This document shows, one piece after another, positions 6,233-44,005 of a stretch of 64,000 bases of DNA (position 1 is the stretch's first letter; every line of letters begins with the position of its first letter). Origin of the DNA: Roseococcus suduntuyensis (GTDB lineage Bacteria; Pseudomonadota; Alphaproteobacteria; Acetobacterales; Acetobacteraceae). The notes under the pieces were generated by a model. That model was not told the DNA's origin and did not search any database. It saw only the letters and a list, made by a program, of their open reading frames with translations. Location: assembly GCF_014196305.1 (NCBI RefSeq), contig NZ_JACIDJ010000005.1, positions 1 through 64,000 on the forward strand. The letters run 5' to 3'. Made by a program: the position numbers and the translations under genes.

Positions 6233-7042
6233 ATGGAGGCGGAACGCCAAGCCCTGATCGCGGCACTGGCCTGGCAGGTCGCCATGGGGGCGGATGAGGC
6301 GATCATGCCCATGGCGCTGGACCGCGCCGCCGCGCGGCCGACCCCGCCACCAGCCCCGCCCGCGCGACCACCATCAGCGCCCCTTGCCGCGCCTCCGCCC
6401 GCCGCCCCGGTGCAGGAGGAGGCCGCTTCCCTCGCCGCCGGCGCCGACAGCCTGGACGCGCTGCGCGAGGCCATGGCCCGCTTCACCGGCAGCCCGCTGC
6501 GCGAGACAGCCACCAACATGGTCTTCGCCGACGGCGTGGTGGGCGCACCTGTGATGGTGGTGGGCGAGGCGCCTGGCGCCGAGGAGGACCGGCTGGGCCG
6601 CCCCTTCGTCGGTGCCTCGGGCCGGCTGCTGGACCGGATGTTCGCCTCCATCGGGCTGGGGCGTGAGGCAAGCCTCTACATCACCAACATCCTGCCCTAC
6701 CGCCCGCCCGGAAATCGCACGCCGACGGATGCGGAGCTGAACCTCTTCCTGCCCTTCGTGCTGCGCCATGTGGCCCTGGCCCGGCCGCGTTTCCTGGTGC
6801 TGGCGGGGGGTGTGGCGGCCAAGGGACTGCTGCGCCAGCGCGAGGGCATCACCCGGCTGCGCGGTCGGTGGCACCAAGTATCGTTATTTGACGGGCAAGT
6901 CATTCCTGCGCTGCCGACACTACATCCTGCTTATATTTTGCGTAACCCGCTGGCCAAGCGAGATGCCTGGGCCGATCTGCTGTTGTTGCGACGCAGCATA
7001 GAAGATGGCGAGAATGTGGCGAATGGTCAGGGTCGGGATTAA
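6233..7042 (+). CDS. Uracil-DNA glycosylase family 4/5-like protein, cysteine-free
   Basis: A 269-residue base-excision repair protein of the SPO1/family 4 uracil-DNA glycosylase superfamily. A proline-rich linker (about 32-60) leads to the fold with motif 1 GEAPGAEEDRLGRPFVG, the YITNILPYRPPGNRTP loop, and the C-terminal LPTLHPAYILR motif. Canonical family 4 enzymes bind a [4Fe-4S] cluster through four cysteines. This protein contains no cysteine at all, and the usual position before the LRETATN stretch is serine, so the cluster appears to be lost. The last 150 bases are visibly less GC-rich than the rest. Activity on uracil is therefore inferred, not shown. Confidence 0.85.
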   Translation: MEAERQALIAALAWQVAMGADEAIMPMALDRAAARPTPPPAPPARPPSAPLAAPPPAAPVQEEAASLAAGADSLDALREAMARFTGSPLRETATNMVFADGVVGAPVMVVGEAPGAEEDRLGRPFVGASGRLLDRMFASIGLGREASLYITNILPYRPPGNRTPTDAELNLFLPFVLRHVALARPRFLVLAGGVAAKGLLRQREGITRLRGRWHQVSLFDGQVIPALPTLHPAYILRNPLAKRDAWADLLLLRRSIEDGENVANGQGRD

Positions 7043-7139
7043 CTTCACCACAGCCGCTGGTTGAATCTTCCCGTCTTCGGCTTTTCTTCAGGAATATCGC
7101 TTGCCAAGCCGGAGAACGGGTTGCTAACCCTGCCGGGCC

Positions 7140-31386: not shown

Positions 31387-31463
<77 letters not shown>

Positions 31464-31477
31464 GCTCTATCCCCTGG

Positions 31478-33106
31478 TCATGCCTGCCGCCGGCGCGCCG
31501 AAGCTCCGGCCAGCGCCATCCCCAGCCGGTTCATCCGGTGTTCCACCAGCGAATCCTTGCCGTTCCACACCGGCAGCTTCTCACCGATGCGGGTGAAGCT
31601 GTCGCACAGGATGAATCGCGCCAGGTCATCCTCGGCACCCCGGGCGGACCAGATCATCTGTGCCGGAAAGGCCAGGCTGCCCAGGAAGGGCACCAGCCCC
31701 ACCAGCAGGGCCACCCAGGGTGGGGACCGCCTTGCGGCGATCGCCCTCGCACTCCGCCACAGCGTATAGACCGAGCGGTAGATCGGCCCGTCGAGCACCA
31801 GGATCAGCCCCAGCATCAGCCAGGGCACGCCCAGCAGGCCCAGCCCGCCCAGCAGCAGCAGCTCCAGCAGGAGGAAGGTGCCCTTCAGCCCGAGATGCGC
31901 GCCGAAGTCCGAGATGTAGCTCCCGGCCTCGTCCATCCGCGCGAGGTCGCGCCGCAGCGCCGCCGCATCCCCCGCCGACAGCTGCCCGCGTTCCTGCCAG
32001 GCCCCGATGCGGCCCTCGACATAGCGGCGGCCGATCTCGTGCCTGTAATCCTGCGAGGTCACGAAGCCGCGCAGATTGGCCGCCCAGCCGCGCGCCCTTT
32101 CGCCCAGGCCAGGCCCTCGCCGCCGCCTGGGAGTCAGGGCCGTGCGAAGCCAGGCCGAGGCCTTGGCGAGCCCACGCCCGGCCTCGCGCCCGCGCCACTG
32201 CCAGGGGTGGGTGCGGAAATGTTCCGCCTGGGCGTTGGTCAGGCGGCATTTGGAGTGGTGATAGGCCACGGCACGCTCCGTGCGCGACAGGGCGCGCCAA
32301 CGGATCTGGTGTTCCCCAAGGCGCGCGCTGCGCTCCCGCAACTCCCGCAGGCGGTCGGTCCCCAGGGCGGCGGCGAGGGGGCCGGCCTCGTGCTCCAGGT
32401 AGTGTCGCAGCCGGGGCAGGTCCACATCGTCGAACAGCACCCGTCGCATCCGCAGCGAATGCGGCAGGTAGAAGCTGAGCATGCGGAACGGGTCCAGCGG
32501 CGCCACGGCCGGAATGCCGGATTCCGCGTCGATGAAGACGAAGCGCCCGGGCTCCGTCATCAGGAAATTGTTGAGCGCGACGGGGTTGCCCTTGCCCGCC
32601 TGCCAGGTGGTGCCGATGAACCCAGCCTCGACCAGATGCGCATGGAGGGGTGCCATCACCTCGTGCGTCAGCACGCGCAGATTGGCGTCGTCCGGGCGCA
32701 GGGGGTGCAGCAGCGGCACCGTCCGCCCCTCGACGAAGCGCGTGCCCAGTTCCCAGACCATCCGCTCCGGGTTCCAGCCGACCGAGACCGCGTCGGACAT
32801 CGTCAACCGATCGCCGAGCCAGAAGGGGATCAGGATGTGCAGCAGACGACGCCGCTCAAAGGCCGTCCGCACCGCGTCCTCGTTCCAGATGTAGGGGTTG
32901 GGCGCGCCGGTCAGGACGTAGTGGATCAAATTGCCCAAGGTGCCGCCCACAAAGACCTTGGTGGCGATGCGCCCCTCGGGCGTCTCGGCCAGCCAGACCT
33001 CGCCCGACTGCCCACGGCCAATGCGCCGGCTGCCACCGCGTGGCGTCCCCGCCGGCTGGGCCTCTTTGGAAGAGGGTCGGCCGAGGGCATCCGTACAATT
33101 GTCCAT
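31478..33106 (-). CDS. Kinase-fold protein with C-terminal membrane helices
   Basis: A 542-residue protein without a clear family name. Residues about 27-55 carry a glycine loop and lysine ([13 protein letters not shown], then IATKVF), as in protein or Kdo kinases. Later, [10 protein letters not shown] and FVFIDAESG occupy the places of the catalytic-loop asparagine and the metal-binding aspartate. The canonical HRD histidine is not obvious. Two hydrophobic stretches near 400-440 and 465-490 suggest membrane anchoring. It lies next to, and is transcribed away from, the tRNA and just outside the gas vesicle locus. Confidence 0.7.
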
Positions 33107-33275
33107 CTGGCGGAAACGCCGCGGTGCGGCGAAGGCTGCCGGCTGGCGTGGTGATGGCCACAGCGAGGCGACGAACCGCTATGCGGAATGTGGTGGCGCC
33201 CGTGTTTCCCCAGTTTGGCCCATGCCCTTGATGGCGCGAAGGGCATGGGCCGCCCGGGTGAAGCGTGCGCCGCGC

Positions 33276-34046
33276 TCAGGCGGTCTCGCGCGCCGCGGCG
33301 ATCCAGCCCTCGACATTGACAAGACGGCTGATGGGACCGAGGGCGCGGCGCAGCGCCTCCGGATCGGCTTCGGCCATCTGGGCGGTGCTCTCGATGCCGA
33401 GGTGCCGCAGGCGCAGCACCATGCCGGGCCCCATGCCGGGGAGAGGGAGGGCAGGGGGCGCGGCGGGCTCCACGTCTTGCATGGCTTCCTCGGCCACCGC
33501 CATGGCGGGCGGCGCTTCCTCCGCGGGAGGGAGATCGGGCGGCGCATCCTGGGCCATCACGGCAGCGAGGATCGGTGCGGCAGGCTCCTCTTCTTCGTCC
33601 GGCGGGAGGTCGGCCGCAGCGGCTTCGACAAGCGGTTCGAGCTCAGGCTCCGGCGCCTCGGGCTCCGGCGCCTCGGGTTCCGGGGCTTCGGGTTCCGGGG
33701 GCGCGGGTTCCGGGGGCGCGGGTTCCGCCTCGGGCGGTGCCGCGTCGGTGATGAGCTGGCCGAAGACGGTGCATTCCACCTCGGCTGGCGGGTGGATCTC
33801 GGCGGGCGTGGGTTCGTTGGGCAGGGGTGCGGCTTGGGGCGGCGGCAGCGAGGTGGCTTCCACCTCGACCGGCTCCTCAGGTGACGTGGCGGGGGGCAGG
33901 CGGCGCAGCCGCGCCCGCTCCTCCCGCAGTTTCTCGCGCAGGCCCGCGCGCATCTGGCGCCGCGCGGCGCGGTTCGCCTGGATCGCCGCGACGCCGCCCA
34001 GGGTATGGGTTTCGCTTGTGCTGCCGGTCAGCCCGTCGGTCATCAT
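33276..34046 (-). CDS. Acidic Pro/Glu-rich protein with C-terminal helix-hairpin-helix domain
   Basis: A 256-residue protein of three parts. A basic N terminus (about 20-50, ANRAARRQMRAGLREKL) comes first. A long acidic proline/glutamate region (50-200) contains a five-residue EAPEP repeat. The C-terminal domain has PLPGMGPGMVLRLRHLGIES, a helix-hairpin-helix pattern, followed by a helical tail. HhH units usually bind DNA or mediate protein contacts. It follows gvpA on the same strand with only a hairpin between, so a structural or assembly role in gas vesicles is a reasonable guess. I do not recognise a gvp family. Confidence 0.7.
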   Translation of the reverse strand: MMTDGLTGSTSETHTLGGVAAIQANRAARRQMRAGLREKLREERARLRRLPPATSPEEPVEVEATSLPPPQAAPLPNEPTPAEIHPPAEVECTVFGQLITDAAPPEAEPAPPEPAPPEPEAPEPEAPEPEAPEPELEPLVEAAAADLPPDEEEEPAAPILAAVMAQDAPPDLPPAEEAPPAMAVAEEAMQDVEPAAPPALPLPGMGPGMVLRLRHLGIESTAQMAEADPEALRRALGPISRLVNVEGWIAAARETA

Positions 34047-34078
34047 GGTCCTCGCTGGCCGTGGAAACAGAGGGGCCC

Positions 34079-34096
34079 GGGGGGCGCCTGCCCCCC
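34079..34096 (-). terminator. Hairpin just downstream of gvpA
   Basis: On the minus strand GGGGGGC and GCCCCCC form a 7-bp GC stem around AGGC in the gap between gvpA and the HhH gene. There is no T-run. A hairpin here could protect the gvpA message from 3' decay and raise its level above that of the downstream gene, as is common for gvpA. Confidence 0.45.
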
Positions 34097-34110
34097 AGGC
34101 GGGCGCCGCA

Positions 34111-34323
34111 TCAGGCCGCGGCGGGGTCGGTGGTCAGGCCCACGGCCTCGGCATACTTCAGGTAGGTCTCCACCGAGGCGACGACCGCGCGGATCTCGAT
34201 CGCGATCAGCTCGATGCCGACCAGCGCCACGCGGATGAAGGCGTCCACGACGACGCCCTTGTCCAGGATGCGGTCGATCACTTCCGCCAGGCTGCTCGAT
34301 GCCAGGCTCTTGTTGATGGTCAC
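34111..34323 (-). CDS. gvpA: Gas vesicle major structural protein GvpA
   Basis: A 70-residue amphipathic protein that polymerises into the gas vesicle shell. The family core is intact: [18 protein letters not shown], then [21 protein letters not shown] and the [10 protein letters not shown] tail. It starts at GTG 34323 with a strong GGAGGA site eight bases upstream. It is leftward, opposite to the assembly genes, and downstream of pcl by 87 bases. That gap contains an inverted repeat GGTCAT/ATGACC (34361-34374), so gvpA may have its own promoter. No adjacent gvpC is seen. Confidence 0.98.
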
Positions 34324-34410
34324 GTATGGGTCCTCCGTCTTGGAACGAGAAATCGGTTGCGGTCATTCATGACCCTGGAAGACCCCGCCGGCGGCGGCTG
34401 ACCTCCCTGG

Positions 34411-35670
34411 TCACGCGGCAGCATCGCGGCTGTTGGTAAAAACTCCCTCAAGCGCGACATCTTCTTCGTCACGATTCCAGTCGCGCGGCTTGCCCATCGC
34501 ACTGCGTGGCAGGGCGGGGCCATGGGCGATGCGGACGGGCCGTTCGGGCGCGGACCAGTGGCTGCGGCAATGGGCCTCCACCTCCGCCACCAGCGCCGCA
34601 CCCTGTGCCGGCTGCGCGGGCACGACGAAGGCCTTGAGCCGCGGCTCCGGCAGCGAGGTGTCCAACCGCAGCGCGCAATCGGCCACGCCGGGCAGCGCGC
34701 GCAGCCGCGCCTCCAGCTCACGCGGAAATATGTTGACGCCGCCAACCTGCACCGCCTCGTCCTTGCGGCCGTTCAGGTGCAGGGCGCGCGCCGATGGCCA
34801 GGTGGCGCGGTCGGGCAGTGGGAATTCGCGCCCGGTGGCGCGTTCAACCACCGATGCGTCTTCCTCCGCGCCGCCGGCACGCCAGCGTGGCAGCAGGTGG
34901 AACGGGCCCTCCGCGGTGGTGCGCGTGGCGATGCCCGCGGTCTCGGAACTTCCGTAGATCTCCATGATCTCCGCGGCTCCCATCGCGCGCATGGCGGCGT
35001 GCAGCGTCGCGGGCAGCGGCGCGGTGGAACTGGTCACGAGGAGCCCGTTCGGCAGCCCGCCCAGGCTGCGCTGCAGCACCAGCAGCGAGGTCGGGTGCGC
35101 CACCAGAAGGTCATCGCCGCGCAGCGCGCGCCGCAGGGCACCGGCCGAAAGGCCGCGCGCATCGAGCAACGGCACGTCCAGCCGGCGCGGCAGCAGCACG
35201 GTGAAGAGGAAGCCATAAATGTGATGCGGCGGCACCAGCGCCACCACGCGCCCGCGCCCGGCGAAGCGCCCGGCGAAGAAGGCGACTTCCTCCTCCAGCG
35301 TCGCGATGTCGTGGGTGCAGGGCTTGGGCGTGCCCGTGCTGCCCGAGGTGGTGAAGGTAAGGCGCGCGAAGCCTTCCTGCTGCGCGCGGTGCACGAGGCC
35401 GGCCCAGCCGGCGATGGTCCGCTCCAGCAGCAGCATGTCCTCGATGCCGCTCTCGTGCAGGTGGAAGAAGGCGTTCACCGCGGCGCCGCAGGCCAGCAGC
35501 TCCAGGCTGTCCAGGGCCAGGCCCTCCGCGTCCAGCCGTTGCGCGCCATCCCAGCGCGCGACCTCCGCGCCGTTCAGCCGGCGCCCGCCGGCATTCAGCT
35601 CGGCGGCGATCAGCGCGGCGACCAGGCGTTCCAGCGCGGGCAGGGGAAGTGGCGCGGCCATGCTGTCCAT
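34411..35670 (-). CDS. pcl: p-Hydroxycinnamoyl-CoA ligase for the PYP chromophore
   Basis: A 419-residue ANL-superfamily adenylating enzyme. It has the P-loop LTFTTSGSTGTPKP, the A5 motif IMEIYGSSETAGIA, the hinge NGRKDEAVQVGGVNIFP, and the catalytic lysine in LPRSAMGKPRDW. An N-terminal section with LALDSLELL resembles that of short cinnamate-type ligases. The neighbouring pyp gene makes p-coumarate activation the obvious job: p-coumaroyl-CoA is the donor that loads the PYP cysteine. It starts at ATG 35670 (second in-frame ATG four codons later) and runs divergently from the PYP module. The substrate is inferred from context. Confidence 0.85.
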   Translation of the reverse strand: MDSMAAPLPLPALERLVAALIAAELNAGGRRLNGAEVARWDGAQRLDAEGLALDSLELLACGAAVNAFFHLHESGIEDMLLLERTIAGWAGLVHRAQQEGFARLTFTTSGSTGTPKPCTHDIATLEEEVAFFAGRFAGRGRVVALVPPHHIYGFLFTVLLPRRLDVPLLDARGLSAGALRRALRGDDLLVAHPTSLLVLQRSLGGLPNGLLVTSSTAPLPATLHAAMRAMGAAEIMEIYGSSETAGIATRTTAEGPFHLLPRWRAGGAEEDASVVERATGREFPLPDRATWPSARALHLNGRKDEAVQVGGVNIFPRELEARLRALPGVADCALRLDTSLPEPRLKAFVVPAQPAQGAALVAEVEAHCRSHWSAPERPVRIAHGPALPRSAMGKPRDWNRDEEDVALEGVFTNSRDAAA

Positions 35671-35827
35671 GATGGAGTCCTCCTACACCTGACCTTGGCC
35701 GCCTGCCCGTTGACGCACGGTTAAGGCGGGGGCGCGCGCGGGCTTAACCGCATCTTCACGGCGGCCATGCGAAGAGGTGGGCGGCCCTGGCGCCCCGCGC
35801 GGTGCCAAAACACGGAGACCCTCCATC
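35671..35827. promoter_or_regulatory. Divergent promoter region with TTAACC inverted repeat
   Basis: This 157-base gap separates leftward pcl from the rightward PYP module. CGGTTAAG (35718-35725) and CTTAACCG (35743-35750) form an inverted repeat with 17 bases between. Each arm contains TTAACC, the CtrA half-site core, and the right one reads TTAACCGCAT. TTGACG (35710-35715) could serve as a -35 element for the rightward transcript. Ribosome sites GGAGTCC (for pcl) and GGAGACC (for the rightward gene) lie at the edges. Confidence 0.5.
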
Positions 35828-36310
35828 ATGAGTGCCGCCCACGCCGTGCCGCATGACGCGCCCGATCCCGCCCCGGCGCGCGGGCTGAAGCGCAAGCCGC
35901 AATCGGTCACGCTGCAGGTCAGCGGCGGCCGTCCGCTTCGCCTGCGCGGGGAGTTGCTGGCCGAGGGCAACAGCTGGGCGCCAGGCACCGAGGCCTGGCA
36001 CGAGATCGCCCTCTATCGCCACGATCAGGAGGAGGTGGCGGTCGCGCTGCGGACCTTCCGCAAGGCCGAGGGCAGCACCGACATCCACCGCGCCGAGCTC
36101 TTTCCCAACCTGGAGGAGGCCATGGCCTGGCTCATCGCCTTCGACCCGACGGCGGACCTCCAGGTGGACCTCGACTGCGCGGACCGCACGCTCAGCACCG
36201 CCATGATCACGCTGCGCGCGGCCACGCTGCGCCAGCGGGCGGATGACATCACCCGTCAGTACCAGTCGCTGCTGGGCGAGATGCTGCTGCACCTCGACCA
36301 GGGCGCCTGA
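35828..36310 (+). CDS. PYP-flanking WHE-family protein 1
   Basis: A 160-residue soluble protein, first of three paralogues around pyp. The shared core is RPLRLRGELL, then EAWHEIALYRHDQEEVAVALRTFRK (given in pieces: EAWHEIALY and VAVALRTFRK), a DxxEEAMAWL helix, and a C-terminal helix ending QYQSLLGEMLLHL. I know no function for the family. Position one gene upstream of a photoreceptor, with paralogues directly downstream, suggests binding to PYP or relaying its signal. The start at ATG 35828 has GGAG upstream. pyp follows after 28 bases. Confidence 0.75.
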   Translation: MSAAHAVPHDAPDPAPARGLKRKPQSVTLQVSGGRPLRLRGELLAEGNSWAPGTEAWHEIALYRHDQEEVAVALRTFRKAEGSTDIHRAELFPNLEEAMAWLIAFDPTADLQVDLDCADRTLSTAMITLRAATLRQRADDITRQYQSLLGEMLLHLDQGA

Positions 36311-36338
36311 ACCCCATCCACGCAAGGAACCCAGGACC

Positions 36339-36713
36339 ATGGAACTCATCAAGTTCGGCAATGACCATGTGGACAACCTCGTCTCGCAGGACCCCGCGCG
36401 CCTCGACCGCCTGCCCTTCGGCGCCATCCTCGTGGACCGCACGGGGCGGGTGCTGAAGTATAACAACATGCAGGCGGGCCTGACCGGCCGCACCTCGGGC
36501 GAGGTGGTGGGCAAGAACTTCTTCAACGACGTGGCGCCCTGCACCAAGGGCCACCTCTTCCAGGGCCGCTTCCAGCAGGGCGTGGCGCAGGGCTCGATCA
36601 ACGCGATGTTCGAATACGCCTTCGACTACAAGATGCAGCCCTCCAAGGTGCGGGTGCACATGAAGTCCACCTCGATCGACGAGGGCATCTGGATCTTCAT
36701 CAAGCGCCTCTGA
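36339..36713 (+). CDS. pyp: Photoactive yellow protein
   Basis: A 124-residue PAS-fold blue-light sensor carrying a covalently bound p-coumaric acid. Aligned from memory to the Halorhodospira protein, the chromophore cysteine is Cys68 (NDVAPCTKG), the hydrogen-bonding tyrosine is Tyr41, Thr49 and Arg51 match T50 and R52, and Met99 (FDYKMQP) matches M100. The residue matching Glu46 is Gln45, so the buried proton donor is absent. A natural E46Q-like state implies altered colour and photocycle. It starts at ATG 36339 and is flanked by three WHE-family genes inside the gas vesicle locus. Confidence 0.96.
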   Translation: MELIKFGNDHVDNLVSQDPARLDRLPFGAILVDRTGRVLKYNNMQAGLTGRTSGEVVGKNFFNDVAPCTKGHLFQGRFQQGVAQGSINAMFEYAFDYKMQPSKVRVHMKSTSIDEGIWIFIKRL

Positions 36714-36718
36714 CCGCC

Positions 36719-37234
36719 ATGCTCCAGGACCGCATCGCCGTCCGGTTGACGCCGGAACCGCCCCCACCACCGCCCGAGCCCAGCGGCTTCCTGCACATGC
36801 TGCTGCCCAGGCACGGCCAGCGGCCGCTGGGCTTCGCCGGACGCCTGCTGTTCAGCGCCGGCAATCGCGGCACGGCGCCGCGCTGCTGGCACGAGGTGGC
36901 GGTCTATGAGCGGGAGGATGGCGGGCTGGTCGCCGCCATCCGCCAGGGCGCCCGCCTCGATGGCCTGGCCGAGCGCAGCTGGGCCTTCCCCTGCGAAACC
37001 CCGGAGGAGGCGCGCGCCGCCTTCGCCGCGCACGACCCCCTGCCGCCCCTGCCGCTGGACGCGCTGACCGACGCGCCCAATGCGGGGCACAACGCGGCCG
37101 CGCTGCTGGAGGCCGCCGCCGCCCAGCGTCGCCTGTGGCACGCCCTGCTGGAGGCCGTGCTCGGCCCCGCGCCCCATCCGCACCACACCCCCGCCGGCAC
37201 CGCGCCCGGCCCTGACCGAGGAGACCACCCGTGA
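36719..37234 (+). CDS. PYP-flanking WHE-family protein 2
   Basis: A 171-residue paralogue of the genes at 35828 and 37231. A proline-rich N terminus leads to RPLGFAGRLLFS, CWHEVAVYEREDGGLVAAIR, an EEARAAFAAHDP helix, and a C-terminal helix AAALLEAAAAQRRLWHALLE. This copy is the most diverged, with a proline- and histidine-rich tail. It starts five bases after the pyp stop and overlaps the next paralogue (GTGA), so all are on one message. Function unknown; candidate PYP partner. Confidence 0.72.
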   Translation: MLQDRIAVRLTPEPPPPPPEPSGFLHMLLPRHGQRPLGFAGRLLFSAGNRGTAPRCWHEVAVYEREDGGLVAAIRQGARLDGLAERSWAFPCETPEEARAAFAAHDPLPPLPLDALTDAPNAGHNAAALLEAAAAQRRLWHALLEAVLGPAPHPHHTPAGTAPGPDRGDHP

Positions 37235-37728
37235 ACGTCATGAACGTCTATGAGCCCGTGGGCGACCGCCCCACCATGCCCATCGCCGCCGATCCGCGGC
37301 TCTCGGCCCGTGTCTCGGGCGGGAGCATGTTCACCCTGCGAAAGTCGGGGGCGCGGCCCATCTCCTTCTCCGGCCGGCAGCTCGGCTTCCAGAGCAACTA
37401 CCGCATGGGCACGCCGCTCTGGCACGAGCTGAACCTCTACCAGACCGAGGATGGCCGCTTCGTCGCCGATATCCGCGTCTTCCAGAAGGGCGAGGGCGCG
37501 CGCGACCAGTTCCACGTGGCCGTGGTGGACAGCCTGGACGAGGCGCTGGCCTTCTTCGAGGGCTATGACCCGCGCATGGACCTGACGGCCGGTTTCTCGC
37601 TGGACGATCCCGACCTTTCGCCCGCCGAGCTGATCGTCCACGCCGCCAAGCTGAAATACGAGATCAACGAGACGGTGAACCAGTACAAGGCCGTGCTCTC
37701 GGCCTTCCTGCACGAGCTGAACGGCTGA
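37231..37728 (+). CDS. PYP-flanking WHE-family protein 3
   Basis: A 165-residue paralogue with the clearest family core: RPISFSGRQLGFQS, PLWHELNLYQTEDGRFVADIR, VFQKGEG, SLDEALAFFEGYDP, and a C-terminal amphipathic helix KLKYEINETVNQYKAVLSAF. The pattern of a beta-rich front half and helical tail is conserved across all three copies. It starts at GTG 37231 with a strong GAGGAG site. It is last in the PYP transcript, 27 bases before a textbook terminator. Confidence 0.75.
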   Translation: MNVMNVYEPVGDRPTMPIAADPRLSARVSGGSMFTLRKSGARPISFSGRQLGFQSNYRMGTPLWHELNLYQTEDGRFVADIRVFQKGEGARDQFHVAVVDSLDEALAFFEGYDPRMDLTAGFSLDDPDLSPAELIVHAAKLKYEINETVNQYKAVLSAFLHELNG

Positions 37729-37754
37729 CGCGGTCCGCATCGGCGCGCGCCTGG

Positions 37755-37784
37755 GGGCACCGGTTCGCCGGTGCCCTTTTTTTT
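37755..37784 (+). terminator. Rho-independent terminator of the PYP module
   Basis: GGGCACCGG (37755-37763) and CCGGTGCCC (37768-37776) form a perfect 9-bp stem on a TTCG tetraloop, followed by eight T residues. It separates the four-gene PYP transcript from the downstream gas vesicle assembly operon. Confidence 0.95.
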
Positions 37785-37799
37785 GGCCGGGCGTCAGCT

Positions 37800-37859
37800 T
37801 CACCGGCCGTTAAGGAGCCCGCTGCTAGGTCTTCTGCTAGCAGGACAGGACGTTCCGCC
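37800..37859 (+). promoter_or_regulatory. Putative promoter region of the gvp assembly operon
   Basis: The gap between the PYP terminator and the AbrB-like gene holds CCGTTAAGG (37807-37815). It shares GTTAAGG with the inverted repeat at 35718 and reads TTAACGG on the other strand. A nearby CTGCTAG direct repeat (37822-37828 and 37834-37840) runs into the palindrome CTGCTAGCAG. A common regulator for both rightward units is possible. AGGACAGGA precedes the start codon. Confidence 0.35.
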
Positions 37860-38576
37860 ATGGAGCTTGGCACCCGCCGAATCAGATCCGCCGGACATGG
37901 CACCGGCAGCGTGGAGGTGACCCTCCCGACCCGGTTCCGGGAATTGGTGGGCGTGCCGCTGCGCGTGCGCCTGCGCGATGGGCTGCGGCCCGAGATCGTG
38001 CTGCAACCCGAGATGCAGGCCGCGCATGCGGCGCTGGAGCGTCTCTGGACGGCGCTCGCGCAGGCCACGGGGCTGGTGGCGCCCCCAGCCTTCCCCGCGG
38101 CGGATTTCGTCTTCGCCCTCTTCGCCCCCTGCGAGGATGCGTCGGAGGCCCCCTTGCGCCCCGGGATCGCCTGGTCTGACGCGCAGGCGCTCGCCGGCGC
38201 CGCGCCGCATTCGCCGGTGGTGCTGGCGCGGCTGCTGCGGGCCTTGGGCGCGCGGCTCGCGGCGCCGCTGGGTGTCGCGTCGGCCCAGGCCTACGGCTTC
38301 GGCGCCGCCCTGGCCTTCGCCGCCACGGGCCAGGTCACCCGCGCCACCGAGCAGCAGGAATGCGACATCGCCGGCGCGGTGCTGGGGGCCGCGCCCGGCC
38401 TCGCCTTCAACGAGGCGGGCGAGGATGCCTGGGCACCGGCCCTCTGGGCCGCGCTGGCGCCGGGCTTCGCCCGCATCACCGACATTCACCGGCAATGGAC
38501 GGCGGAGCCCGCCCTGCTGGCCCGGTCGCGCGCCGCCTGGCGCCGCGGCGTCACCCTCGAACTCGGCGGAGCCTGA
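37860..38576 (+). CDS. Gas vesicle locus protein with AbrB-like N terminus
   Basis: A 238-residue protein. Residues 4-50 (RRIRSAGHGTGSVEVTLP, LRVRLRDGLRPEIVLQP) have the swapped-hairpin pattern of AbrB/SpoVT DNA-binding domains. The remaining helical part has no family I recognise. As first gene of the downstream gvp operon it may be a local regulator, or an assembly factor that uses the fold for oligomerisation. The ATG at 37860 has AGGACAGGA upstream. Confidence 0.65.
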   Translation: MELGTRRIRSAGHGTGSVEVTLPTRFRELVGVPLRVRLRDGLRPEIVLQPEMQAAHAALERLWTALAQATGLVAPPAFPAADFVFALFAPCEDASEAPLRPGIAWSDAQALAGAAPHSPVVLARLLRALGARLAAPLGVASAQAYGFGAALAFAATGQVTRATEQQECDIAGAVLGAAPGLAFNEAGEDAWAPALWAALAPGFARITDIHRQWTAEPALLARSRAAWRRGVTLELGGA

Positions 38577-38581
38577 GCGCC

Positions 38582-39607
38582 ATGTCCCTGCGTCCTTCCC
38601 CGCTTGCCCGGCCGCGTGCCGTCATGCCCCCGCCGCCGCCGCGTGATGCGCTCGAGAATGAGAGCGAGACGACGCTGCAACTGCGCGCGGGCGCGGAATT
38701 CGTCAGCACCGATGCCACCGAGGCCTTGGTGCAGCGCAGCCTGCGCTACCTCGAAGGTGGCTATCCCGTGCATTTCCGGGGGCCGGCGGGCAGCGGCAAG
38801 ACCACGCTGTCGCTGCACCTCGCCGAACGGCTGGAACGTCCGGTCGTGCTGCTGGTGGGCGATGACAGCTTCGACACGCGCCGCCTGGTGGGCGGCGAGA
38901 GCGGCACGCGAAGCCGCCGCGTCGTGGACCGCTACATCACCAGCGTGACCAAGGTGGAGAGCGAGAGCGAGCCCATGTGGCTCGACCGCGCGCTGACCGT
39001 CGCCTGCACCGAGGGCTGCACGCTGGTCTATGACGAGTTCAACCGCGCGCCGCCCGCCGCCAACAACGTGCTGCTGACGGTGCTGGAAGAACGCATGCTG
39101 GTGCTGCCCAAGGCCGGCCGCGGCGAGACCTACACGCGCGTGCATCCCGAATTCCGCGCCATCTTCACCTCCAACCCCGTGGACCATGTGGGCGCGCACG
39201 AGGCGCAGAACGCCCTGCTGGACCGCATGGTGACGCTCGACCTCGACGGCTTCGACCGCGGCACGGAGGTGGCCGTCACCGCCGCGCGCTCGGGCCTGCC
39301 TTTGGCCGATGCGGCGGCCATCGTGGACATGGTGCGCGACTTCCGCCGCTCCCGCGAATACACGCAGCGCCCCACGCTGCGCGCCAGCCTGATGATCGCG
39401 CGGATGACGGCGGTGCAGGGCCTCGCCGTCAGCGCCGATGACCCGGACTTCGTGCAGCTCTGCCTCGACCTTCTGGGCAGCCGCCTCAAGCCCGGGGTGG
39501 GCGGCCAGCCCGATGCGCGCCATCGGCAGATGCTCATCAAGCTCATCGAGCACTTCTGCCCGCCCACGACGACACGGCGCGATGCCCGCTTCGGGGGTGT
39601 GGCATGA
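38582..39607 (+). CDS. gvpN: Gas vesicle AAA+ ATPase GvpN
   Basis: A 341-residue AAA+ ATPase of the MoxR-like branch needed for gas vesicle enlargement. Walker A is RGPAGSGKTTLS, Walker B LVYDEFNRAPP, and the sensor region AIFTSNPVDHVG. An N-terminal extension (1-35) is proline-rich. The ATG at 38582 follows the previous stop by five bases, and its own stop overlaps the next gene (ATGA). Confidence 0.97.
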   Translation: MSLRPSPLARPRAVMPPPPPRDALENESETTLQLRAGAEFVSTDATEALVQRSLRYLEGGYPVHFRGPAGSGKTTLSLHLAERLERPVVLLVGDDSFDTRRLVGGESGTRSRRVVDRYITSVTKVESESEPMWLDRALTVACTEGCTLVYDEFNRAPPAANNVLLTVLEERMLVLPKAGRGETYTRVHPEFRAIFTSNPVDHVGAHEAQNALLDRMVTLDLDGFDRGTEVAVTAARSGLPLADAAAIVDMVRDFRRSREYTQRPTLRASLMIARMTAVQGLAVSADDPDFVQLCLDLLGSRLKPGVGGQPDARHRQMLIKLIEHFCPPTTTRRDARFGGVA

Positions 39608-39903
39608 GGCCCCGCCCGCTGCGCGTGAACGCGCGGCGCGGCACGCGCCTCGCCCGCCACGACACGCATGAATTCCGGCTGGAGGCGGTGGCCGCCGAAT
39701 TCGCGCTGAACGCGCAACGCCGCGCGCGGCTGACCCGCCAGATCGAATTGCTGGAACGCCAGCGCGCGGGGGCCATGAGCAGCCTCGCGCAGGTGGAGGC
39801 GCGCATGGTCGTCCTGCAGCGGCGCATGCGCGGCGCCGAGGACGCACCGGCCGTCCCCGCGCCCGCCCCCACGCACCGCCCCCGCATCATCCTCGAATAC
39901 TGA
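39604..39903 (+). CDS. Small basic coiled-coil protein of the gvp operon
   Basis: A 99-residue protein with a basic N terminus and one long predicted coiled coil (about 25-75), RQIELLERQRAGAMSSLAQV being the clearest heptad stretch. A proline-rich tail ends HRPRIILEY. I do not assign it to a known Gvp family. ATGA overlap with gvpN and position before gvpO argue that it is a genuine operon member, perhaps an assembly or cargo-binding factor. Confidence 0.65.
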   Translation: MRPRPLRVNARRGTRLARHDTHEFRLEAVAAEFALNAQRRARLTRQIELLERQRAGAMSSLAQVEARMVVLQRRMRGAEDAPAVPAPAPTHRPRIILEY

Positions 39904-39917
39904 CCCGGAGCACGCCC

Positions 39918-40172
39918 ATGGACCTCACCGAGATCATCGAGCGCACCAAGCGCGACATGGCGGCCATCACGGGGCTGCCGCCCGACACGGTCAGCCGCCT
40001 CGATCCGGGCGAGCATGGCTGGACCATCGGCATCGACATGATCGAGCACAAATCCATCCCGCGCACCCAGGACCTGATCGCGAGCTTCGAGGTGCTGCTC
40101 GACCATGAGGGCAAGATCCAGCGCTGGCGCCGCACGGGCCGCTTCCACCGCGCCCAGGGCGGGGAGGGCTGA
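39918..40172 (+). CDS. gvpO: Gas vesicle protein GvpO
   Basis: An 84-residue GvpO-family protein. The pattern GWTIGIDMIEHKSIPRTQDL, then ASFEVLLDHEGKIQRWRRTGRF matches the family (W-x-V/I-E, xRIPxTxDxxAxYEVxLD). GvpO is needed for gas vesicle formation, and in haloarchaea it affects gvp expression. The start at ATG 39918 has GGAGCACG upstream. gvpJ follows after three bases. Confidence 0.9.
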   Translation: MDLTEIIERTKRDMAAITGLPPDTVSRLDPGEHGWTIGIDMIEHKSIPRTQDLIASFEVLLDHEGKIQRWRRTGRFHRAQGGEG

Positions 40173-40175
40173 GCC

Positions 40176-40478
40176 ATGGCCATGCAGCATTCCGTGGCGG
40201 GCTCGGGCCTGGCTGACATCCTGGAGCGCATCCTGGACAAGGGCATCGTGGTGGCGGGCGACATCTCCGTCAGCCTGGTGGGCGTGGAGCTGCTGACGGT
40301 GCGGCTGCGCCTCGTCATCGCCTCGGTGGACCGCGCGCTGGAAATGGGCATCCGCTGGTGGGAGGCCGATGCGGCCTTGTCGCAGGATGCGGCGAAGCTG
40401 CGCGCGGAAAACGCGGCGCTGACCGAGCGGCTGGCGCGCCTCGAAGCGGCACTGCTGCCGGAGGGTGCGCGGCCATGA
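40176..40478 (+). CDS. gvpJ: Gas vesicle minor structural protein GvpJ
   Basis: A 100-residue GvpA-like protein. The shared core is LADILERILDKGIVVAGDIS and SLVGVELLTVRLRLVIASVD. The GDIS variant, the MGIRWWEAD segment after the core, and a C-terminal coiled coil point to GvpJ rather than the shell protein GvpA. GvpJ probably nucleates or caps the cone tip. Its stop overlaps the next ATG. Confidence 0.88.
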   Translation: MAMQHSVAGSGLADILERILDKGIVVAGDISVSLVGVELLTVRLRLVIASVDRALEMGIRWWEADAALSQDAAKLRAENAALTERLARLEAALLPEGARP

Positions 40479-40690
40479 GGCGGCCCGTCTCGCTCTCGCG
40501 CCGGCTTAGCGAACGCGCCCGCGCCGTCGTGCCGCAAGAAGTCGCGCAGGACCTCCCGCGCGTGGATGGCGATGCCCAGGCCAGCCTGATCATCGGCTAC
40601 TCGGTGCGGGTGGGCCTCGGGGACGGGACGGAGCACCGCCAGGACGCCACGCTGGAAATGCGGCTGCGGCGCGAGGAGGCCGGGGAATGA
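40475..40690 (+). CDS. Small unrecognised protein of the gvp operon
   Basis: A 71-residue protein. A basic N terminus (MRRPVSLSRRLSERAR) precedes a region likely to form beta strands (ASLIIGYSVRVGLGDG, TLEMRLRRE). No family recognised. ATGA overlaps on both sides (gvpJ stop and the next GvpF/L start) show it is translated as part of the operon. Confidence 0.6.
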   Translation: MRRPVSLSRRLSERARAVVPQEVAQDLPRVDGDAQASLIIGYSVRVGLGDGTEHRQDATLEMRLRREEAGE

Positions 40691-41442
40691 GCGCGGGCCT
40701 CTATATCTACGGCATCGCGCCGGGCGCGCTCTCGGCCGAGGGGCTGGGCCCCGGCCTTGCCGGCGGCCAGGTGACGGCGCTGCACGCCGCGGGCTTCACC
40801 GCGCTGCTGGGCGAGGCTCCGCCCGCGCCCATCGAGGCCACGCGCCGCTTCATGCTGGCCCACACCGCCGTGCTGGAACGCGCCATGCGCCTCTCCGACG
40901 TGCTGCCCATGCGCTTCGGCACCGTGGCGCCGGACGAGGCCGCGCTGCATCGCTGCCTCGTCGCCCACGCGCCCGCCTTCCGCGAGGCCCTGGAGGGCAT
41001 CGCGGGCCGCGTCGAACTCGGCGTGAAGGCGCAATGGCATGAGGGGCTGATCTGGCGCGAGATCGTGGAGGGCGATGCCGAACTCCGCGCCCTGCGCGAC
41101 CGGCTCAAGACCCGCCCCGCGCAGGAGACCTACTACGAGCGCATCGAACTCGGCCGCCGCGTGGAAGCCGCACTCGCCCGCCGGCGCGAGGCCGATGGCG
41201 CGGCCATCGCCGCCACCCTCGCCCCTTTGGCGGAGCGCGAGGTGGAACTCCGCAGCGTGGAAGAGGACATGATCCTCAGCCGCGCCTTCCTTGTGCGGCG
41301 CGAGGCGGAGTCCCAGTTCGACGCCGGCATGGAGGCGCTGGCCGAGCGCTTCGGCGAGCGTGTCACGTTCAAATATGTCGGCCCCGCTCCCCCGTACAAT
41401 TTCGTGACGCTGCGCGCCGATTGGCTGCGGGAGGCGGCATGA
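40687..41442 (+). CDS. GvpL/GvpF family protein (copy 1)
   Basis: A 251-residue gas vesicle assembly protein. Family hallmarks are GLYIYGI (4-10), LPMRFGTVAPDE (about 74-85), the central KAQWHEG strand, and the C-terminal FKYVGPAPPYNFV motif. GvpF/L proteins bind GvpA monomers and are needed for shell nucleation. F and L cannot be told apart here. Overlaps both neighbours by four bases. Confidence 0.95.
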   Translation: MSAGLYIYGIAPGALSAEGLGPGLAGGQVTALHAAGFTALLGEAPPAPIEATRRFMLAHTAVLERAMRLSDVLPMRFGTVAPDEAALHRCLVAHAPAFREALEGIAGRVELGVKAQWHEGLIWREIVEGDAELRALRDRLKTRPAQETYYERIELGRRVEAALARRREADGAAIAATLAPLAEREVELRSVEEDMILSRAFLVRREAESQFDAGMEALAERFGERVTFKYVGPAPPYNFVTLRADWLREAA

Positions 41443-41693
41443 GCATGCTCGGCACCCTGCTTGGCCTGCCCGTGATGGGCCCGCTGGGCGGCGTCTCCTG
41501 GATCGCGGGCAAGCTGCGCGAGGCGGTGATGGCCGAGGCGCTGGACCCCGCGCGCATCGAGGCGGGGCTGCGAAAGCTCGAAAAGCGGCTCGATGCCGGC
41601 GAAATCACCGAGGAGGAATATGACGTGGCCGAGGCCGAGCTGCTCGCGGAACTGCGCGCCATCCGCGCCGCCCTGGCGGAGGGCGCGCCATGA
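41439..41693 (+). CDS. gvpG: Gas vesicle protein GvpG
   Basis: An 84-residue helical protein matching GvpG: the hydrophobic LLGLPVMGPLGGVSWIAGKL N terminus, then the acidic coiled coil LRKLEKRLDAGEITEEEYDV. GvpG is a chaperone-like assembly factor that interacts with GvpF/L. The start at ATG 41439 overlaps the upstream stop (ATGA); its own stop overlaps the next gene. Confidence 0.93.
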   Translation: MSMLGTLLGLPVMGPLGGVSWIAGKLREAVMAEALDPARIEAGLRKLEKRLDAGEITEEEYDVAEAELLAELRAIRAALAEGAP

Positions 41694-42673
41694 CCCCGCA
41701 ACTGACCCTGCTGGGCGTGGCCGAGGCGGCCATGGCCCCCGCGCTGGAAGCCGCCCTGGCCGCCCTGCCTGGCCCGGCCTTGCGGCTGTGCCGGGTGGGT
41801 GGGCTGCTGGGCGTGGCGCAGAGCGCGCCGCGCACCGCCTTCCCGGCTGGCCGCAGCGCGATGTTCAAGCGCCTGCACGCCGTGCAACGGCGGCTGGAAA
41901 TCGCCTGCCAGGTGGGGCCCTTCCTGCCGGCGGATCCCGCTGCCGCCCTGTGTCCCGCCAGCGAGTTCGCGGCCTTGATCGAGGCCGCCGCACCGGCCCT
42001 CGGCGCCGCGCTGGCGCGCGAGGGCGGGCGCCACCAGTGGCAGGTCACGCTGCGCTGGGCGCCGGAGGCCATCCTGGCGGCGCGACGGGACGCGGTGCGC
42101 CGCCTCGCCGCCAGCGAGCGCCCGAAGGATGTGGCCGATGCCGTGGCCGCCATCCTGGCCGAGGCGCGGGCCGAGCGCGCCATGGCCCTGCGCGCCGCGC
42201 TGCTGCCCCTCGTGGTCGCCCTCTCGCCCGAGAATGTCTCGGGGGGCGAGGGCGAGACCTCGCTGACCATCCTCGTGCCCGCGGGGGGCGAGGCCGCCAT
42301 CGAGGCCGGGCTCGGCGCCATGCCGCCCGCGCTGACCCAGGGCATGTCCTGTGACCTGACGGGCCCGCTGCCGCCGCTTTCCTTCAGCGCCTTCCGCGTG
42401 GTGGAGGACGAGGCCGGCCGGCTCAACGGCGCCTGGCGCCTGCTGGGCCTGCCCGCCCGCGCCGATGGCAGGTCGCTCGCGCGGCGCTGGCGGGAGGTGG
42501 CGGGCACGCTGCATCCCGACCGTGCCGGCGGCAGCGCCACCGGCTTCGCCGCCGCCAGCGAGGCCCATCGGCTGCTGCGCGGCGCCCTGCCGGCGGATGG
42601 GCAGGGCCTTGCGCAACAGGATCTCGCCACCCGCGCCGCACGGCGCATCATCCTGCCGGAGCTCGCCGCATGA
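41690..42673 (+). CDS. GvpF/L-like protein fused to a C-terminal J domain
   Basis: A 327-residue two-part protein. Residues 1-235 look like a diverged GvpF/L fold (central SAMFKRLHAVQRRLEIACQV and HQWQVTLRW strands). Residues about 245-300 form a J domain: AWRLLGLPARADG, then RRWREVAGTLHPDRAGG with an intact HPD motif, and SEAHRLLRG. J domains stimulate Hsp70 ATPase, so this protein could deliver GvpA or the assembly complex to DnaK. Coupled at both ends by four-base overlaps. Confidence 0.85.
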   Translation: MTPQLTLLGVAEAAMAPALEAALAALPGPALRLCRVGGLLGVAQSAPRTAFPAGRSAMFKRLHAVQRRLEIACQVGPFLPADPAAALCPASEFAALIEAAAPALGAALAREGGRHQWQVTLRWAPEAILAARRDAVRRLAASERPKDVADAVAAILAEARAERAMALRAALLPLVVALSPENVSGGEGETSLTILVPAGGEAAIEAGLGAMPPALTQGMSCDLTGPLPPLSFSAFRVVEDEAGRLNGAWRLLGLPARADGRSLARRWREVAGTLHPDRAGGSATGFAAASEAHRLLRGALPADGQGLAQQDLATRAARRIILPELAA

Positions 42674-43425
42674 GCCTCGCCCTCTACGCCTATGCCGCGC
42701 TTCCCGCCGGCGTGCCCGTGCCGGATATGCCGGGGCTGGAGGGGGCGGGGCCGCTTGCCCTGGTCACGGAGGGCGCGGTGGTCGCCCTGGTCAGCCCCGT
42801 GCCCGCCGCCTGGTTCGCCGAGGGTGGGCTGGCCAGCGACCCGGAATGGGTCTCCCGCCAGGCGCTGCGGCACCATGCGGTGTGCGGCGTGCTGGCGGGC
42901 ACGGCCCTGCCGCTCGCCTTCGGCGCGGTGTTTTCCAGCGAGGCGCCGCTGCGGCTCTGGCTGGCCGAGCGCGCGGGCCCGCTCGCCACCGCCCTGACCC
43001 ACGCCCAGGGCTGCGCGGAATGGACGCTGCTGCTGCGCGAGGATACGCCGCGGCTGGAGGCCTGGCTCGCCGCCCATGACACGGAGCTCGCGCGGCTGAG
43101 CGGCGCGGCCGCGGTGGCCGGGCCCGGCACGCGCTTCCTGCTGGAGCGCCGGCTGGAACGCGCGCGGGAGGAGGCGCGGGCCCGCCATCTCGACGCCGCC
43201 GCCACCCGTCTCCAGGTCGCGCTGGCCGATCATGCGCGCGCGCTGATCCCCGCCCGCACCCGCGCCGGGATGCTGGGCGTCAATGTGCTGCTGCCCGGCG
43301 CCCCGCCCCCGTCGCTGGAGAACATGGCGAGCGAGCTGGACGCGACGGGTGTCTCCCTCACCCTCAGCGGCCCCTGGCCGCCCTATGCCTTCGCGCGGGA
43401 GGCGCTGGCCCATGCCCATGGCTGA
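42670..43425 (+). CDS. GvpL/GvpF family protein (copy 3)
   Basis: A 251-residue assembly protein with ALYAYAALPAG at the N terminus, LPLAFGAVFSSEAPLR in the middle, EWTLLLRED, and the closing LSGPWPPYAFA motif that corresponds to GPWPPYxF of the family. It is the third F/L-type gene in this operon; two are usual in bacteria. Overlaps the J-domain gene by four bases and the next gene by fourteen. Confidence 0.93.
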   Translation: MSLALYAYAALPAGVPVPDMPGLEGAGPLALVTEGAVVALVSPVPAAWFAEGGLASDPEWVSRQALRHHAVCGVLAGTALPLAFGAVFSSEAPLRLWLAERAGPLATALTHAQGCAEWTLLLREDTPRLEAWLAAHDTELARLSGAAAVAGPGTRFLLERRLERAREEARARHLDAAATRLQVALADHARALIPARTRAGMLGVNVLLPGAPPPSLENMASELDATGVSLTLSGPWPPYAFAREALAHAHG

Positions 43426-43660
43426 ACCGCGCGGGCTGGCGCCCCAGCCGCAGGCGCCCCAGCCGCAGGCGCTGGTGCCCCAGCCGCAGGCGTTGGTAGA
43501 CGTGCTGGACCGGCTGCTGGACACCGGCGTGGTGCTGGACGGCCAGCTCGTGATTTCCGTGGCGGGCGTGGACCTGGTCCATGTCGGGCTGCGGGCGCTG
43601 CTCGCCTCGGTCGAGACCGCCGCGCGCCTGGCGCAGGTTCGGCCGGAGACCCGGCCATGA
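43412..43660 (+). CDS. GvpA-like minor protein (GvpS/GvpM type)
   Basis: An 82-residue GvpA-family protein with LVDVLDRLLDTGVVLDGQLV and SVAGVDLVHVGLRALLASVE. It matches the GvpM/GvpS branch by the LDGQLVIS element and by its position between GvpF/L and gvpK. The N-terminal extension repeats APQPQ/VPQPQ four times, which is unusual. The start at ATG 43412 is preferred because GGAGG lies nine bases upstream; ATG 43418 is possible. Confidence 0.82.
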   Translation: MPMAEPRGLAPQPQAPQPQALVPQPQALVDVLDRLLDTGVVLDGQLVISVAGVDLVHVGLRALLASVETAARLAQVRPETRP

Positions 43661-43977
43661 TCGCCATGGCCGATGACGCCCAGCACGCGCTGGCCGCGGC
43701 CGCGGCCCCGGTGGCCATGCGGCTCGCCCTCGCCCCCGAGAACATGGAGCAGGACCTCTCGCGCCTCGTGCTGACGCTGGTGGAATTCCTCCGGCGGCTG
43801 CTGGAGGCGCAGGCGGTGCGGCGCATGGAAGGCGGCGGCCTGGACGCCGAGGAAGCCGAGCGCCTGGGCCTCGGCCTGATGCGCGCGCGCGAGGCGGTGG
43901 TGAGCCTCTGCGGCAAGCTCGGCATCGCGCCGGAAACCCTCAACCTCGATCTCGGCCCGCTCGGCCGGCTCATGTGA
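43657..43977 (+). CDS. gvpK: Gas vesicle protein GvpK
   Basis: A 106-residue helical protein. It shows the GvpK pattern NMEQDLSRLVLTLVEFLRRL, then LLEAQAVRRMEGGGL and the terminal LNLDLGPLGRLM. GvpK is required for assembly in several bacteria; its exact role is unresolved. The start at ATG 43657 overlaps the preceding stop (ATGA). ATG 43666 is a minor alternative. Confidence 0.92.
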   Translation: MIAMADDAQHALAAAAAPVAMRLALAPENMEQDLSRLVLTLVEFLRRLLEAQAVRRMEGGGLDAEEAERLGLGLMRAREAVVSLCGKLGIAPETLNLDLGPLGRLM

Positions 43978-44005
43978 TCCGCGCCCGCGCGGAAAGGAGG
44001 ACATG

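Follow-up and report, generated by a model that had tools for sequence, protein, structure and literature searches.

Photoactive yellow protein (PYP), a much-studied photoreceptor, has been associated with gas vesicles before: pyp lies near gas-vesicle (gvp) genes in Rhodobacter capsulatus and Loktanella sp. SE-62 (PMC3646047, citing Kyndt 2004), and a table in PMC6273459 names gas vesicles and buoyancy as a PYP function. The idea that light controls buoyancy is plausible and not new. As to how such a signal might be passed on, two papers describe the protein partner of the Halorhodospira halophila PYP as never identified (PMC9664959) and as unidentified (PMC13250908). Here we analyze a pyp locus of Roseococcus suduntuyensis (Acetobacteraceae), located in a stretch of 64,000 nucleotides (positions 1 to 64,000 of contig NZ_JACIDJ010000005.1, hereafter the window), in which pyp is embedded in a gas-vesicle cluster and flanked by three paralogous genes encoding small proteins, termed X1, X2 and X3. 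The evolution of one of these, X3, is tied to the presence of pyp. Judging from these sequence comparisons, X3 may be the protein partner of the window PYP, coupling blue light to gas vesicles, a reading for which we consider the case close to balanced, if leaning slightly to the negative.

The core of the locus (34411-37728) comprises a p-coumarate:CoA ligase (pCL) gene, X1, pyp, X2 and X3. From left to right, the minus strand carries a Pro/Glu-rich open reading frame (ORF), gvpA and the ligase gene, followed on the plus strand by X1, pyp, X2, X3 and a terminator; right of the terminator, the plus strand continues with an unnamed ORF, gvpN, O, J, L and G, two further gvpF/L genes, gvpM and gvpK. 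A sequence-only reading of this DNA had placed pyp between gvpA and the gvp assembly operon of what looked like an Acetobacteraceae genome. Both points hold, as the PYP and GvpA models (TIGR02373 and NF006874) match over their cut-offs with gvp genes to the right, and the source is a Roseococcus genome (4.14 Mb, 17 contigs; coded G000 in the family sample below). Its statement that pyp occurs next to gas-vesicle genes in Rhodobacter is likewise in print (PMC3646047). What that reading overlooked, and what we think is the main point of the locus, is the X family.

X1 (35828..36310), the first gene of the pyp operon, X2 (36719..37234), a diverged paralogue, and X3 (37231..37728, starting at GTG 37231 or a later ATG) all lie on the plus strand; identity to X1 is 28% for X2 and 29% for X3, making the three genes that flank pyp paralogues of one another. 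None of the three matched a Pfam or NCBIfam family over cut-off; when 23 X members were compared with Pfam, the best single match reached E 0.0026, in one member, while a profile of the family found nothing among PDB sequences at E 10, and X1, X3 and two relatives had no PHROG match. The structural models of X3 and X1 (mean pLDDT 89.0 and 89.7, built on alignments of 23 and 18 sequences) agree in their predicted fold, i.e., five strands, a helix and a long C-terminal helix. As regards a PUR-alpha/Whirly-like nucleic-acid-binding fold, PUR-alpha (3nm7) recurred in Foldseek for both models, weakly (E 0.08-0.4). Four Microbacterium phage records match X3 weakly. The phage hypothetical proteins A3Wally gp103 and Pumpernickel gp100 (L271:1567-2037 and L272:1501-1971) align with ~40 residues in the first part of the X domain, at 35-37 bits; they have this part of the domain in common with X, but lie beside a primase/helicase gene, with no PYP or gvp gene among the four features shown for each.

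To establish the distribution of the family, one draw of 397 Acetobacteraceae genomes was screened for PYP, for X and for GvpA. X was present in 15 genomes and PYP, over its cut-off, also in 15 (41 at E 1e-3), while the GvpA model matched 20 genomes at E 1e-3, 16 of them over cut-off. All 15 X genomes were among the 20 GvpA-type genomes, meaning that X is restricted to gvp-positive genomes in this sample, and 9 of the 15 PYP genomes were among them as well. GvpA-type genomes without X are G033, G076, G167, G306 and G395; for G076, G306 and G395, neither the Pro/Glu-rich ORF nor the unnamed ORF found 5' of gvpN is seen in the gvp stretch that was fetched. Eight of the X genomes, from six genera by group code, have pyp adjoining X (G000, G044, G175, G207, G209, G326, G348 and G356), and in seven of them X1 and X2 enclose pyp; the eighth, G207, has a pair of pyp genes ahead of X2-X3, with no adjoining X1. 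A tandem pyp pair is seen within one gas-vesicle locus at L057:6220-6594 and 6906-7280. At the locus of the other seven X genomes (G178, G195, G212, G274, G318, G332 and G393), X and gvp genes are present but pyp is not; G393 carries a PYP on another contig, and the remaining six gave no PYP match at E 1e-3. With 7 of 15 X genomes devoid of pyp at the X locus, the notion of X as a PYP-only family was rejected. A class-level draw of 385 genomes yielded X in three (one a weak match with stops) and PYP over cut-off in six, both being present in G000 and G655.

A second sample was formed by the 80 best of 241 confirmed PYP loci from named genomes, in which gvp matches were scored against the window proteins over a fetched stretch of at most 10 kb on each side, often less. 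Eight of these loci had gvp matches (L053-L058, L063 and L070), and X, sought among ORFs of 60 aa or more, was found in all eight, as well as in 1 of the 72 loci without gvp (L064). L063 and L064 come from Sphingomonadales metagenome-assembled genomes (MAGs) and L070 from a Parvularculaceae MAG. The L064 locus is ordered pyp, coiled-coil-like ORF, X3, pCL, and GvpA was not found in its 3.1 Mb MAG, whose completeness is not given. A small coiled-coil-like ORF between pyp and X genes (L063:3993-4364, L064:10332-10778) is common to both Sphingomonadales loci. Outside the Acetobacteraceae, pyp lies near gvp genes in three loci, L063, L070 and L165. The arrangement is therefore not confined to one strain, being shared by six genera of the family and these three loci, and its repeated appearance in different genera speaks for a functional link of blue-light sensing to gas vesicles.

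We next compared the history of each gene in the cluster with that of pyp. On a gvp core tree of 12 concatenated gvp-cluster proteins from 13 genomes (the core alignment of G348 being just 25% filled), the state of pyp changes three times, in a direction (loss or gain) that the tree does not tell, and a single clade of pyp-bearing loci is rejected (p-AU 2.8e-22). Distances among pyp-bearing pairs were then related to core distance for 16 genes, using one genome per lineage, six pyp-bearing and four pyp-less (G175, G044, G195, G318 and G212 were omitted, and G332 has no X3, leaving n=9 for X3). The X3 distance was 1.09x the core distance among pyp-bearing pairs and 2.22x in other pairs, ranking 1 of 84 labelings, whereas the other 15 genes gave fold values of 0.86 to 1.10. 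Alone among the 16 genes, X3 was thus more similar between pyp-bearing loci than expected from core distance; X1 (rank 35/56) and X2 (rank 91/210), considered as pyp-tracking genes in their own right, were unsupported. Mean identities, for which, as for the X family tree, G175 and G044 were left out, were 62% within the pyp-bearing group and 41% between groups for X3, as compared to 68 and 66% for gvpN, 54 and 54% for gvpL, 40 and 35% for X2, and 40 and 45% for X1, the last lowered by a stray X1-like ORF taken for the X1 of G207, a row that the subsequent analyses omitted.

Branch lengths fitted on the gvp core tree gave a similar picture. Comparing the pyp-less G393/G195 pair with pyp-bearing G356, the X3 ratio was 3.47, the highest of 16 genes, followed by gvpM with 2.15; comparing G178 and G274 with G207, X3 gave 7.65 and 8.16, each the highest of 14 genes, the next-highest values being 3.29 for gvpA (on tiny lengths) and 2.38 for gvpM, with X1 not measurable there. 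In the X family tree, pyp-less G195/G393 and pyp-bearing G356 group as sisters by their X3 (support 100/95), the branch of the pyp-less pair being the longer one. The X3 of this pair was therefore not exchanged for another X, which fits inheritance followed by faster change. In pyp-less G332, X2 was found and X1 and X3 were not, and a transposase-like ORF, recognized by eye, lies upstream.

Eight positions of X3 that are invariant in six pyp-bearing loci are changed in both G195 and G393. Three of the eight, Asn66, Lys84 and Asp90 (model numbering), are likewise unchanged in three distant pyp-linked X3 proteins of non-family origin, which makes nine aligned X3 proteins in all; near copies were not included in the nine, nor were the third X of L063 or the distant X of G655. 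Position 82 is aromatic in the nine, is not aromatic in G195, G393 and G178, and is Trp in G274. The Phe/Lys/Asp loop also occurs in X1 of the window, and could be a trait of the whole family, prone to loss from X3 where pyp is missing.

Several observations weigh against tying X3 to PYP in this way. The choice of X3 was made once 16 genes had been compared, and rank 1/84 corresponds to p ~0.012 uncorrected, which would fail a strict correction. There are just three pyp-less lineages, and since G178 and G212/G274/G318 are sisters on the core tree they represent one change, where moreover X3 is strongly diverged and its orthology is assigned by position; Lys84 is retained in pyp-less G274. A column-counting rate test, which is weaker than the tree-based one, gave p values of 0.013-0.43 for X3 (below 0.05 in 4 of 10), down to 0.0013 for the Pro/Glu-rich ORF of G393, and also below 0.05 for X1, X2 and the ORF at 41690. 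Taken by itself, the X3 tree is compatible with one clade of pyp-bearing loci (p-AU 0.274), and hitch-hiking of X3 with pyp could be part of the source of the pattern. As for the samples, L053-L058 and six of the family-sample genomes are the same records; the named loci therefore overlap with that sample and L063, L064 and L070 are what is new, with moderate tree support (85/86) for the identity of their X3. X was not found beside 64-68% identical PYPs of Belnapia (L060, L061), a Craurococcus MAG (L059) and a Rhodospirillales MAG (L062). Finally, Foldseek searches of the PDB with X3 and X1 returned nothing at E 1e-3, and thus give no output for X3. At Belnapia L061:7282-8655, a related PYP and ligase, with no X or gvp matches, adjoin an ORF that is chemoreceptor-like by eye; Belnapia possibly has the same sensor with another output.

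Weighing these points, we arrived at the hypothesis that the locus holds a blue-light input module built into an Acetobacteraceae gas-vesicle cluster. At the level of the families involved, the ligase activates p-coumarate, p-coumarate is bound to PYP at Cys69, and blue light starts the photocycle. In the window, the ligase would accordingly load PYP, as is established for these families, and blue light would drive its photocycle; one of the PYP forms would then bind X3, which, probably with its paralogues X1 and X2, would alter gas-vesicle expression or assembly, this output and the direction of the light effect being presumed, as is the binding itself. X1 and X2 would be members of the gas-vesicle cluster that mostly stay without pyp, and X3 the member specialized for PYP. 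More specifically, X3 might be a direct, previously unknown PYP partner, representing a new class of effector with no confident fold match, that switches gas-vesicle formation with blue light and makes contact through the Phe82/Lys84/Asp90 loop and the Asn66 strand; this fuller proposal we hold tentatively, and regard as rather more likely to fail than to hold.

The 124-aa product of pyp (36339..36713, plus strand, start ATG; TIGR02373 162.9 bits, curated cut-off 143.05) keeps Tyr42 and Cys69 and has Gln instead of Glu at position 46, in what we take to be the H. halophila numbering. Among the 80 named loci, Cys69 is present in all, Tyr42 in 79 (the remaining one being a stop), and position 46 is Glu in 78, Gln in one and Asp in one. 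These conserved residues agree with PMC12826048, according to which Gln46 occurs in 2.6% of 984 PYPs, such that Glu46 is no strict requirement. Given that the E46Q form of H. halophila PYP is red-shifted (PMC9664959), the rare Gln46 suggests, by analogy, a red-shifted and faster photocycle in the window PYP.

The ligase gene (34411..35670, minus strand), divergent from the pyp operon, encodes an ANL enzyme of the pCL type (PF00501 and PF13193 over cut-off). The claim that this is the enzyme type activating p-coumarate is borne out by its match to TIGR02372 (4-coumarate-CoA ligase), the best among 69 models listed as matching, at 311.4 bits and below the curated cut-off of 334.7. A ligase homologue is present in 75 of the 80 named PYP loci. 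The window genome has one aromatic ammonia-lyase match, which is probably HutH because it adjoins an imidazolonepropionase-like ORF (by eye), and no dedicated tyrosine ammonia-lyase (TAL) was found in this genome; p-coumarate may be supplied from outside. At L063, an ammonia-lyase-like ORF (by eye) lies between gvpA and pyp.

The closest named match to the window PYP (98% identity) belongs to R. thiosulfatophilus RB-3 (G044/L053), in whose pyp (L053:10001-10369) the Tyr42 codon is TAA. Homology between RB-3 and the window ends inside the ligase at 35622, the RB-3 ligase (L053:9281) being cut off after its first codons, and gvpA was not found in the RB-3 assembly, where just the J and M types matched. 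This locus looks decayed, with the sensor gene broken where the shell gene was not found, a single case that proves little.

The gas-vesicle cluster that houses pyp comprises gvpA and the assembly genes F/L, G, J, K, M, N and O. On the minus strand, gvpA (34111..34323; NF006874 122.9 bits, cut-off 100) encodes the main shell protein, and is followed by the Pro/Glu-rich ORF (33276..34046), which we term HHH for its C-terminal helix-hairpin-helix-like stretch (HHH_5 21.6 bits, below the cut-off of 27) and which is also found near gvpA at other loci. On the plus strand, the unnamed ORF 5' of gvpN (37860..38576), common to many X-type gvp clusters, precedes an AAA ATPase (38618..39607; PF07728 69.7 bits) that, from its position, we take to be GvpN. 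Next are gvpO (39918..40172; PF05800 67.4 bits), a gvpA/J-type gene, here gvpJ (40176..40478; PF00741 60.4 bits), gvpL/gvpF (40687..41442; PF06386 218.3 bits), gvpG (41421..41693; PF05120 71.2 bits), a diverged gvpL/gvpF (41690..42673; PF06386 52.2 bits), another gvpL/gvpF (42670..43425; PF06386 128.9 bits), a gvpA/M-type gene, here gvpM (43283..43660, the true start probably being internal; PF00741 54.2 bits, told apart from gvpJ by position only), and gvpK (43657..43977; PF05121 100.6 bits). The diverged GvpL/GvpF ORF has a C-terminal HPD-like stretch, J-domain-like by eye, for which Pfam gave no match at E 0.01. A 713-aa ORF (44003-46144), by eye a membrane-anchored coiled coil and without a Pfam match, ends the gvp operon; ORFs of this type do so in all three pyp-bearing Roseococcus, with weak matches only elsewhere.

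Promoters of pCL and of X1-pyp-X2-X3 are presumed to lie in the divergent intergenic region (35671..35827), and no sigma-70 type site was found in 34000-38000. The proposal that the pyp transcript has its own terminator agrees with an intrinsic terminator after X3 (37753..37778, plus strand; a stem of 11 pairs, then a T run). Scanning the 4 kb gave two sites as compared to 1.2 expected in shuffles, the other being a terminator-like stem with a weak T run 3' of gvpA (34075..34100, minus strand), so that the terminator after X3 is credible for its strength and place and not for the site count. We infer that X1-pyp-X2-X3 are co-transcribed.

Other explanations of the locus can be set against a partnership of X3 and PYP. 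PYP might control the gas-vesicle genes through another protein, be it X1, X2, HHH or some kinase or regulator encoded elsewhere, with X3 a gas-vesicle accessory protein whose rate differs by chance. X1, X2 and HHH do reside in the same cluster, HHH of one pyp-less genome is also fast in the column count, and the genes described beside pyp in published work code mostly for kinases, GGDEF/EAL proteins and chemoreceptors (PMC12826048; PMC9664959); yet the distance test shows no tracking of pyp by any of the other 15 genes, and the L064 MAG has pyp, X3 and pCL where GvpA was not found. We consider this explanation unlikely, if a serious contender. Somewhat less probable still is that pyp and X are tied only loosely to gas vesicles, gvp loci gathering accessory genes and pyp being inherited with the cluster, while the response is, e.g., phototaxis or photoprotection. 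That the state of pyp shifts three times along the gvp tree would suit this account, as would the 6 of 15 family genomes with PYP over cut-off that have no GvpA-type match, and the broken pyp of one sister strain. That strain is, however, the one Roseococcus in which gvpA was also not found, and the adjacency recurs across the genera and outside loci described above.

The sequence-only reading had gone further, suggesting a mobile light-controlled buoyancy cassette. For its functional half, the recurrence across genera speaks for a link of light sensing to gas vesicles, light control of buoyancy itself being conjectural; mobility is not supported, and we deem it improbable that the cassette moves between bacteria as a unit. 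Its presence is patchy, with a PYP match in 3 of the 14 Roseococcus genomes listed, and a tRNA-Arg gene (31387-31463) lies left of the gas-vesicle region. Against this, GC is even (0.68-0.78 along 24-54 kb, with no break at the cassette), and the core gvp genes of pyp-bearing loci are no closer to each other than between groups. No transposase or integrase had a Pfam match among the 19 ORFs scanned (31478-46144), where no systematic search for mobile genes was made. X as a mobile-element gene was rejected, as neither X3 nor X1 matched among plasmids; PYP relatives occur on four plasmid records, at just 43-50% identity, and of eight stretches in viral contigs fitting a PYP pattern none is a relative. 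No empty site could be defined in gvp-less Roseococcus: of 10 genomes, 2 had the left-flank protein and 9 had the right-flank protein, the two never shared a contig, and the fetched flanks were not syntenic. On the gvp tree, repeated loss fits the pattern as well as transfer does.

Returning to X3 as the putative partner, what is new within the literature searched is the X family and its X3-pyp tie, making X3 a testable candidate for the missing partner, chosen post hoc from a small sample. X-type genes beside pyp were not found in the open literature searched, although they may be listed under hypothetical proteins in the supplementary neighbourhood tables of PMC9664959 and PMC12826048; in the operon survey of PMC12826048, 'vesicle' and 'gvp' are absent from the main text and Table 2 has no small unnamed protein. 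The case for X3 offers a named protein, named residues and natural controls, in the form of pyp-less sister loci. If true, blue light would be coupled to gas vesicles, which serve as imaging reporters, by a link that is genetically encoded.

Compared with the systems described to date, the locus resembles those of Rhodobacter capsulatus and Loktanella in having a PYP gene close to a gvp cluster; what is described here is an X1-pyp-X2-X3 run of an unnamed family. Like the pyp-pCL-TAL operon of Halorhodospira halophila (PMC12826048), it pairs PYP with its chromophore-loading ligase, but the ligase gene here is divergent and no TAL adjoins it. Lastly, where PYP has GGDEF/EAL, kinase or chemoreceptor neighbours (PMC12826048; PMC9664959; a Caballeronia plasmid), the single-domain PYP is thought to signal to a protein encoded next to it, and the same may apply here, with the difference that the neighbour is X3, unlike the recurring proteins in Table 2 of PMC12826048.

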